The notes beneath the pieces were generated by a model. It was not told the origin of the DNA and ran no database searches. It saw only the letters and a list, made by a program, of their open reading frames with translations. Both the position numbers and the translations under genes were made by a program. 64,000 bases of DNA from Stenotrophomonas sp. ZAC14D1_NAIMI4_1 (GTDB lineage Bacteria; Pseudomonadota; Gammaproteobacteria; Xanthomonadales; Xanthomonadaceae): positions 1,762,407 through 1,826,406 of the forward strand of contig NZ_CP026001.1 in the NCBI RefSeq assembly GCF_003086775.1. The letters are read 5' to 3'. Shown here piece by piece: positions 4,740 through 51,265 of the stretch. Positions within the stretch are counted from its first letter, which is position 1. The number at the start of each line of letters is the position of its first letter.

Positions 4740-4827
4740 CGTTTGCCTCGAGTGCTGGTTCGCAGGATCGACGGCGTACGCAATGGCGGGCACGGCCTGC
4801 CATCGACGAACGCCGGGTTCGTCAACA

Positions 4828-4885
4828 ACAGGAGCCATCAGCCATCAAAGGCGGTTATCGGGGGAGCCCCATCCCCATCACCGTC
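4828..4885 (-). promoter_or_regulatory. Fluoride riboswitch (crcB motif)
   Basis: Read on the minus strand, the segment has the hallmarks of the crcB RNA motif: GGTGATGG, then a GGGGCTCCCC stem-loop, then AACCGCC, then GCTGATGGCTCCTG. These match the conserved blocks of the known fluoride aptamer, including the pseudoknot-forming segments. It lies in the leader of crcB about 90 nt before the start codon, the expected place. Binding of fluoride should turn crcB expression on. Confidence 0.92.
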
Positions 4886-17885: not shown

Positions 17886-18040
17886 GTCAACGGCAACGTC
17901 AAAAGCCCAGCTCCAGTGGGAGGGCGGGGCGGTGTGGGCAGGCGGGGGACGGCAAAAGCTGCTCCTGCGTGCCTCGTAGAGCGCCATCCATGGCGCTCTG
18001 CGCCCCCGCCAGCCCACACCGCCCCGCCCCTGACAGGTTC
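17886..18040 (-). other. Nested inverted-repeat element, copy A
   Basis: Outer arms 17922-17948 and 18003-18029 pair over 27 positions with one A-A mismatch. The inner arms 17978-17987 and 17990-17999 (AGAGCGCCAT/ATGGCGCTCT) pair perfectly. Read on the minus strand it shares the 5' flank CCTGTCAG, the core CATGGATG and the 3' flank TTGACGTTGCCGTTG with the elements at 24995 and 49643. Its inner stem starts with GTAG on the plus strand, like a SMAG. Function unknown. Confidence 0.75.
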
Positions 18041-24994: not shown

Positions 24995-25150
24995 CGGAAA
25001 CTGTCAGTGGCGGGGTGGGGTGGGTATGCAGGACCGTTGGCGCCATGGATGGCGCCATCGAGCCCCCATGGATGGGTTTACGGCGTGTCCTGCATACCCA
25101 CCCCACCTCGCCAACCCACGGAATGCCAGCTCTTGCCGTTGCCGTTGCCG
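24995..25150 (+). other. Nested inverted-repeat element, copy B
   Basis: The outer stem pairs 25009-25034 with 25087-25112 over 26 bp, with one G-T wobble. Inside are GGCGCCAT/ATGGCGCC (25039-25056) and a second CCCAT-GG-ATGGG hairpin (about 25064-25076), giving a possible three-way junction. Flanks GGAAACTGTC and TTGCCGTTGCCGTTGCC are shared with copy C. Function unknown. Confidence 0.8.
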
Positions 25151-49550: not shown

Positions 49551-49589
49551 GGGGTCAGAGCCCTTTGCTGCGCAAAGGGATCTGACCCC
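49551..49589. repeat. 39-nt hairpin repeat, copy 2
   Basis: GGGGTCAGAGCCC at the left, GGGATCTGACCCC at the right, with a CTTTGC/GCAAAG inner stem. The outer sequence matches the copy at 18053; the inner stem differs but still pairs. It lies 12 bp after the hflX stop. Confidence 0.85.
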
Positions 49590-49642: not shown

Positions 49643-49798
49643 CGGAAAACTGTCGAAGGCGGGGCACTGTGGGTTTGCGGGGTGTGAGCCGCATGGATGC
49701 GGCGACCAAGCCCCCATGGACGGGTTCACGGCGTCCCCGCAAACCCACAGTGCCCCGCCATCCCACGGATACCAGCATTTGACGTTGCCGTTGCCGTT
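49643..49798 (+). other. Nested inverted-repeat element, copy C
   Basis: The outer stem 49658-49682/49735-49759 is perfect over 25 bp. The inner hairpin GCCGCAT-GG-ATGCGGC (49688-49703) and a second CCCAT-GG-ACGGG hairpin (about 49712-49724) lie inside. The flanks GGAAAACTGTC and TTGACGTTGCCGTTGCCG match copy B. Function unknown. Confidence 0.82.
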
Positions 49799-49957
49799 GA
49801 TTGCGGCAGGTGCAGGGCTGCAAGCCCTGCTGGAACACTCCATCCCGCACTACCGGCCGATTACCGCACTCCAGCCGCCCGATAGTGCACATCCGCTCAC
49901 GCCCGCCGGGCGGATGATCCGAGGGTCTGCCCCCACGGCACCCCCGGAGTCCCTTCC

Positions 49958-51265
49958 ATGTCCCACGTCAGCACCGACGCACTCCCCCAGTACACCGCGG
50001 CGGAGAAACGCCACCGCGTGTTCGCCATCATGTCGGCCTCGTCCGGCAACCTGGTGGAGTGGTTCGACTTCTACGTCTACGCGTTCTGCGCCATCTACTT
50101 CGCCGGCGCCTTCTTCCCGGCGTCCAACCCGACCGTGCAGCTGCTCAACACCGCCGGCGTGTTCGCCGCCGGCTTCCTGATGCGGCCCATCGGTGGCTGG
50201 CTGTTCGGCCGCATCGCCGATCGCCTCGGCCGCAAGAAGTCCCTGCTGATCTCGGTCAGCATGATGTGCGGCGGCTCGCTGATGGTCGCCTGCCTGCCGA
50301 CCTACGCCAGCATCGGTGCGATGGCGCCGGTCCTGCTGCTGGTCGCGCGCCTGATCCAGGGCCTGTCGGTCGGTGGCGAGTACGGCACCACGGCCACCTA
50401 CATGAGCGAGGTTGCCCTGCGCGGCCAGCGCGGCTTCTTCTCCTCGTTCCAGTACGTCACCCTCATCGGTGGCCAGCTGCTGGCGGTGCTGGTCATCGTC
50501 ATCATGGAAGCCCTGCTGAGCGAAGCAGAGATCCGCGCCTGGGGCTGGCGCATCCCGTTCGTGCTTGGCGCCGTCGCCGCCGTGGTCGCGCTGCTGCTGC
50601 GCCGTACCCTGCATGAAACGCAGAGCGAGGCCGACCGTGGCGACAAGGATGCCGGCAGCCTGTCGGCGCTGTTCCGTGACCACAAGGCCGCCTTCTTCAC
50701 CGTGCTCGGCTATACCGCTGGCGGCTCGCTGATCTTCTACACCTTCACCACCTACATGCAGAAGTTCCTGGTCAACACGGTGCACCTGCCCATCAAGACC
50801 GCCAGTTACGTGATGACCGGCGCGCTGTTCCTGTACATGTGCATGCAGCCGCTGTTCGGCATGCTGTCCGACCGCATCGGCCGCCGCACCAGCATGATGC
50901 TGTTCGGTGCGCTGGGCGCGCTCACCACCGTGCCGATCCTGATCACCCTGCAGCACGTCACCAGCCCGTGGGCGGCCTTCGGGCTGATCGTGCTGGCGCT
51001 GGCCATCGTCAGCTTCTACACGTCGATTTCCGGCATCGTGAAGGCCGAGATGTTCCCGCCGCAGGTGCGCGCGCTCGGCGTCGGCCTGGCCTACGCCATC
51101 GGCAACGCGATCTTCGGCGGCAGCGCCGAGTACGCCGCGCTGGGCCTGAAGAGCCTGGGCCATGAACAGCTGTTCTTCTGGTACGTCACGGTGATGATGG
51201 TGGTGGCGTTCCTGGTCAGCCTGCGCCTGCCGCGCCAGGCCCGCTACCTGCACCACGACCACTGA
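49958..51265 (+). CDS. MFS transporter, metabolite:H+ symporter type (KgtP/ShiA-like)
   Basis: 435 residues with twelve membrane segments. [47 protein letters not shown] and [23 protein letters not shown] are typical of the MHS group that imports alpha-ketoglutarate, shikimate, proline or similar with protons. KgtP-like is the best guess, but the substrate is not certain. It is a single gene after a repeat cluster. Confidence 0.88.

Follow-up and report, generated by a model that had tools for sequence, protein, structure and literature searches.

Copy C, the element considered here, lies ahead of a transporter gene starting at position 49959 of a 64,000-nucleotide stretch of the Stenotrophomonas sp. 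ZAC14D1_NAIMI4_1 genome (the window, i.e. the whole of the DNA that was analysed). A long outer stem (P1) carries two hairpins, P2 and P3, and a conserved joining strand completes the core (Table 1). An earlier note on this DNA described a perfect 25-bp outer stem, which direct reading bears out. It also closed both inner hairpins on two-base GG loops; the hairpins are both present, but a GG loop is unable to close, and the loops are instead six bases long, lying 23 nt apart. The fold energy of copy C gives z = -5.85 against 200 shuffles, none of which is as low, and its minimum-energy fold is not the three-way junction (-79.1 vs -74.5 kcal/mol for the junction). Two further copies are present in the window. 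Copy B, near 24995, has outer arms that differ in sequence from those of copy C yet pair, as the earlier note had claimed, and the third, copy A, is a diverged copy on the minus strand; a search for its altered second hairpin returned apparent chance matches in coding sequence. Elsewhere in the window, an Rfam search locates a fluoride riboswitch (4822-4885, minus strand, 48.6 bits).

Table 1. Features of copy C and the positions of the two other window copies.
Feature	Position in window	Strand	Basis
P1 outer stem, 5' arm, 25 nt	49658..49682	+	direct reading; folds with 49735-49759
P1 outer stem, 3' arm	49735..49759	+	direct reading
P2 hairpin GCCGC-ATGGAT-GCGGC, loop ANGGAN at 49693-49698	49688..49703	+	direct reading, covariation
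P3 hairpin CCC-ATGGAC-GGG, loop ANGGAN at 49716-49721	49713..49724	+	direct reading, covariation
GCC, proposed partner of GGC 49730-49732, lengthening P3	49710..49712	+	near-invariant across the class, covariation hardly informative
Joining strand TTYACGGCGT, conserved	49725..49734	+	columns 70-79 of class alignment A3
CTGTC, 5' flank kept in own-genome copies	49650..49654	+	alignment A1, 100 copies
Hairpin GCAGGGC-TGCAA-GCCCTGC downstream of copy C	49812..49830	+	same type 3' of own-genome rows (see text)
Copy B, whole element, other outer arms	25009..25112	+	sequence reading, R1 match
Copy A, diverged core, altered second hairpin (our reading)	17944..18004	-	R1 E 0.0016

The element is highly repeated in its own genome. 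With 61 own-genome cores as input, a covariance model of 59 nt (R1) finds at least 150 places at E <= 0.1 in 4.70 Mb, far from the few or no further copies for which the earlier note had allowed, and the second-hairpin pattern occurs 98 times while its reversed control pattern does not occur. Copy counts here and below are minima, as the best 150 candidates were scored in the own genome and the best 135, 15 and 13 per genome in the genus, class and phylum searches, respectively. Among the 150 listed copies there are 54 neighbouring pairs closer than 1 kb, 53 of them divergent (minus-then-plus) and one plus-plus; 107 of the 150 are paired, at a median distance of 316 bp, and SMAG-like sequence is found in 35 of the 49 pair spacers read. 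Gene context, assigned in the own genome and across the class by our own ORF scorers rather than a published gene finder, was tabulated for 111 own-genome pattern rows, one of which (3662406) is no genuine copy: 35 are placed between converging genes, 33 in sense tandem, 31 in antisense tandem and 12 between diverging genes, so that orientation in tandem contexts is neutral. One of the two hairpins is replaced or interrupted in six own-genome copies. An apparently common palindromic insert of ~85 bp (GTGAGGGCGCTTTGC...) sits within the second hairpin of three copies (L089, L098 and L100, at 3304515, 3481689 and 3533259), and another insert takes the place of the first hairpin in those at 1577478, 1860103 and 3317353.

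This layout bears on a possible boundary function at gene ends, in which the element would act as a processing, stability or Rho-related barrier guarding mRNA 3' ends or separating neighbouring transcripts. In own-genome copies the nearer gene end usually lies on the 3' side, where a converging stop codon is typically 60-100 bp away; the outer stem also has very high stability, and a divergent pair would serve both directions. Against this, 45 of the 111 rows point at the start of a downstream gene, no U-run is seen on inspection, and a barrier would need neither the ANGGAN loops nor the conserved TTYACGGCG; we regard such a function as improbable. The missing U-run, together with the location of copies beside gene ends in both orientations, likewise tells against the terminator-like element that had been suggested earlier. 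A hairpin of the type GTGCAGGGC...GCCCTGC is present on the 3' side of 74 of the 111 rows.

Of 41 Stenotrophomonas genomes, 31 have R1 matches, and the R1 core occurs in 71 of 369 gammaproteobacterial genomes (63 of 271 genera). Across the phylum 39 of 398 genomes match, 38 of them within the class and one, outside it, by a single weak match (E 6.3e-4). A pattern scan of named genomes gave at least 118 stretches, including Yersinia, Vibrio, Shewanella, Marinobacter, Methylomonas and Xanthomonas; by our reading of their titles two say only Proteobacteria and the others name gammaproteobacterial taxa. Among 180 class placements the antisense orientation to genes is commoner (53 vs 34 sense), 19 lie at a locus edge and 30 lie inside a called gene (25 sense, 5 antisense), the last, we think, being partly gene-call errors. 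Close pairs in other genera (<600 bp, four loci, counted by eye) are divergent in 12 cases, convergent in 4 and tandem in 11. Tandem arrays (L278 in G582, L175, L124) hold six copies at ~227 bp, four at ~180 bp and three at 105 bp; these, and the Yersinia copy discussed below, were read among 100 loci chosen from those fetched. Comparison of copy C with plasmids and phages by blastn gave no match, a search that far-diverged copies would escape. The element pattern does occur in four viral contigs, of which L267 is without the hairpins and L268-L270 have the element or its Yersinia-like form, and there may thus be rare carriage on phage or prophage contigs.

Conservation of the structure was analysed on a class alignment (A3) of 140 matches comprising 134 distinct rows. 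An 18-pair three-way junction accounts for 90.0% paired cells, with changes on both sides of a pair in 564 cells vs 188 after shuffling. The covariation score is 0.579 vs 0.173 shuffled and at most 0.080 in versions slid along the alignment, though A3 was fitted to eight R1 pairs and the covariation of those pairs therefore leans toward the model. Further pairs lie outside the R1 model, and were chosen by inspecting A3 itself: the first hairpin extends further than the earlier note saw, as columns 3-51 (CG 79, TA 41), 4-49, 7-47 and 9-42 covary, while a proposed pair 5-48 fails (47 of 133). The GCC/GGC pairing beneath the second hairpin hardly varies across the class, and covariation is therefore little test of it. 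Taken with the shuffled and slid controls, the class-wide covariation supports the earlier proposal of a three-way junction under selection for structure; the alternative outcome that the note had named, no significant covariation, is not what the shuffle test on the 134 distinct rows returned. By eye, a third GGA-loop hairpin is seen upstream of the two standard ones in L239 and perhaps L254.

The outer arms are variable yet paired. Pairing could be assessed in 144 of 155 copies, the others being too near an end, and about 20 of the 144 are from Stenotrophomonas; the arms pair (score >15) in 108 of the 144 vs 2 of 716 swapped arms, and 36 have a weak outer stem. Thirteen copies of one genome (G347), read by eye, are near-identical in the core and differ in their arms beyond a few core-adjacent bases, yet still pair; such a combination of different arms with one core would fit arms created at insertion. 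In genomes G123 and G129 the arms are graded among copies, and at an orthologous site shared by the own genome and G009 (L354 vs L070, flanks 96-97% identical) matching changes have occurred in both arms. Graded arms and paired orthologous changes also fit fast paired evolution. The copy C site itself holds an element with different arms in G009, and the syntenic gap in G011 is without one. Copy C's downstream neighbour is kept in 3 of the 30 loci fetched (L297, L298 and L317), the other 27 being uninformative on an empty site.

Both hairpins carry C-ANGGAN-G in 104 of the 111 own-genome rows, the remainder being the six with one hairpin replaced or interrupted and the one that is not a true copy. 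Outside Stenotrophomonas the P2 loop was counted in 129 copies in which P2 had not been fixed by the search pattern. Seven of these lack a recognisable first hairpin and 26 have other loop lengths; the 96 six-base loops have A 91, G 92, G 92 and A 93 at positions 1, 3, 4 and 5, respectively, and all four bases occur at positions 2 and 6. The published Rsm motif is A/U-CANGGANG-U/A (PMC4353343). From their sequence, the ANGGAN loops of the element correspond to a CsrA/RsmA motif and are predicted to bind this protein. One CsrA dimer is able to bridge two such sites. CsrA is encoded in the own genome and, by comparison of the lists by hand, matched in 66 of the 71 element genomes, no CsrA match being found in G048, G109, G140 and G381 (67-88% complete) and G235 (98% complete); because 247 of the 298 element-free genomes also have CsrA, the co-occurrence is weak.

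If pairing acts in RNA, G.U would be tolerated on the functional strand, so that mispairs in the outer stem can indicate which strand this is. In copies with a stem score of at least 24, with the two terminal pairs at either end of the stem left out, the GGA strand has more G.T than A.C, at 246:121 in other genera, 98:70 in the own genome and 59:48 in other Stenotrophomonas, the excess being small in the own genome and the copies not independent; other mismatches number 338 in other genera, 202 in the own genome and 105 in other Stenotrophomonas. The excess suggests that the GGA strand acts as RNA, although it could be due in part to deamination with a strand bias. Of the roles put forward in the earlier note, structured RNA is the one favoured by this strand test.

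An element with such loops might simply place the adjacent gene, and no other, under CsrA/RsmA control in cis. It has the motif, and in some own-genome copies, copy C among them, a start codon follows 100-200 bp downstream. Yet the two loops in copy C are >200 bp from the start codon of the transporter gene and cover no ribosome-binding site, promoter-like motifs (by inspection, unscored) often intervene between element and start, and orientation is neutral, all of which makes an exclusively local control function highly improbable.

Self-complementary TIR repeats were described in S. maltophilia K279a in 2013, and like the element the SMAG (GTAG REP) and TIR repeats of S. maltophilia are palindromic and often paired (PMC3733652). 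Unlike them, the element shows no GTAG tag and does not adjoin the RAYT/TIRYT genes examined: none of 29 Y1-transposase loci in eight Stenotrophomonas genomes other than K279a has a copy within ~1.5 kb, and three R1 matches near Y1 loci (E 0.05-0.55) are taken as chance. We therefore rejected identification with SMAG/REP or with the TIR of a tyrosine transposase, in agreement with the earlier view that this is no ordinary SMAG. Two Y1 loci (L402 and L404) have a GGGGTCAG...CTGACCCC palindrome on their flanks. Upstream of copy C (window 49551-49589), a GGGGTCAGAGCCCTTTGC...GCAAAGGGATCTGACCCC palindrome resembles these inverted repeats, and this likeness implies that a TIRYT transposase may have its TIR repeat in that hairpin rather than in the element.

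The element might alternatively be a purely selfish, REP-like DNA repeat, its hairpins acting as single-stranded DNA for some transposase and the ANGGAN loops as recognition signal, with no role as RNA. At least 150 copies, patchily distributed and mostly intergenic, would be expected of such a repeat, as would tandem arrays, neutral orientation, divergent pairs resembling REP dimers and the one syntenic gap without a copy. Pairing at the level of DNA does not, however, predict an excess of G.T over A.C on one strand, nor do the Y1 loci (the only transposase type tried) show an association; the matching changes in both arms at one orthologous site also run counter to this explanation, and the free N positions of the loops suit an RNA-protein motif. 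We consider it rather unlikely. The mobile element proposed earlier fares likewise in part: dispersal and the syntenic gap fit, and an association with a transposase, sought for Y1 only, was not found.

Among described RNAs the closest relatives are TwoAYGGAY and Ysr224. Rfam returns nothing above threshold at the window copies, the best sub-threshold matches of copy C being unrelated microRNA and viral RNA models. The gathering score of TwoAYGGAY (RF01731) is not reached in the window, nor does the model match at E <= 0.01 among the best 15 own-genome candidates, and copy C scores 16.9 bits (E 0.19, minus strand) against Ysr224 (RF02770), below the cut-off. A class relative (L219) comes nearer to both, with 32.5 bits for TwoAYGGAY (cut-off 43) and 40.8 for Ysr224 (cut-off 70), and a Yersinia proxima copy reaches 94 bits for Ysr224, on the strand opposite to GGA, with an R1 match on the other strand. 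The TwoAYGGAY model has matches in 15 of the 166 class genomes searched, 10 of them with a score over its cut-off (best 15 candidates per genome). At 5 of 20 TwoAYGGAY loci R1 matches at E < 0.001 with identical place and strand (L386 3.9e-7, L390 7.5e-5, L382 1.1e-4, L384 3.4e-4, L389 6.4e-4), L386, L382 and L384 being above the Rfam cut-off and L389 and L390 below; at the other 15 loci R1 is weaker or missing. The earlier statement that the RNA is unrecognised thus holds for the element itself, whereas its relatives grade into these two families, and a match to a described family exists only remotely, through them.

TwoAYGGAY is described as probably an RNA, probably not cis-regulatory, from human gut, gammaproteobacteria and Clostridiales (Weinberg 2010, PMC2864571), and was proposed in 2014 to bind CsrA (PMC4333381). 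Like the element it has an outer stem and two hairpins with AYGGAY-type loops, those of the element being wider (ANGGAN), and it is multicopy, with 6 divergent, 1 convergent and 1 tandem among 8 close pairs tallied by eye; most of the 18 Rfam-type loci read by eye, however, lack the TTYACGGCG/RAGCC core of the element or have it in altered form. The element would seem to be a remote and unannotated branch of this poorly understood family. Ysr224 is likewise multicopy and shares the Yersinia proxima copy with R1 on opposite strands, but is modelled as another structure with a short outer stem. Ysr224 has been called temperature-responsive (PMC9029176), and in Y. ruckeri it is multicopy and expressed, with expression differing among copies and no strand given for it (PMC12112432). 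Since Rfam draws Ysr224 on the strand apparently without GGA loops, this expression may concern that strand, and the curated strand may deserve a check. TwoAYGGAY shares clan CL00106 with E. coli CsrB; CsrB/RsmZ-type CsrA decoys resemble the element in their ANGGA hairpin loops, known from the literature, and differ in being one gene with many sites, where the element has many dispersed copies with two sites each. As far as the listings of the literature searched show, the element has not been described, and the 20 sequence-string matches listed, of 27, look like chance primer matches.

We give an even chance to the reading that copy C belongs to the TwoAYGGAY superfamily as one of many copies of an RNA element that binds CsrA/RsmA and has spread as an intergenic repeat. 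The structure, the class-wide covariation, the ANGGAN loops, copy number, divergent pairing, variable paired arms and the GGA-strand G.T excess were computed directly; binding, transcription in Stenotrophomonas and spreading we infer from them. Copy C would belong to a class-wide structured RNA family in which a long P1 carries P2 and P3, each ANGGAN loop held by C-G. Transcription of the intergenic DNA on the GGA strand would present the two loops as a two-site target for a single CsrA/RsmA dimer, and the outer stem, being stiff, would shield the predicted motif from RNases. As most of the listed own-genome copies are in divergent pairs, a transcript from either side would carry one sense copy, and many weakly transcribed copies might jointly act as a scattered CsrB, titrating or buffering CsrA/RsmA. 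Copies would be spread and rewritten by recombination among themselves or by some mobility system. The neutral own-genome orientation, the commoner antisense side across the class, the five element genomes with no CsrA match, the weak co-occurrence with CsrA, the lower-energy alternative fold, the weak stems of 36 of the 144 class copies, the small G.T excess in the own genome and the possibility that Ysr224 is expressed from the other strand count against this reading.

A bolder form of the multicopy CsrA/RsmA-binding reading would make this a gammaproteobacterial genomic repeat dedicated to CsrA/RsmA, a dispersed sponge whose >100 intergenic copies, mostly in divergent pairs, set the level of free protein, which we hold only as a tentative and somewhat doubtful proposal. 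Jointly with it, and just as doubtfully, the outer arms may be rewritten faster than the core while remaining paired, any stem being tolerated and only one pair of loops. As far as the literature searched shows, what is new is the occurrence in many copies across the class, the more detailed junction, the divergent pairs, the turnover of the arms, the strand test and the Ysr224 link. The R1 covariance model adds copies beyond the reach of the Rfam model, and even without CsrA binding a single core with differing yet pairing arms needs explanation. If the proposal is right, orphan annotations (TwoAYGGAY, Ysr224 and unnamed Stenotrophomonas palindromes) would become one testable family, whether repeats can serve as a regulatory sink for an RNA-binding protein would become a directly testable question, and the global regulator CsrA/RsmA would have a repeat family of its own.
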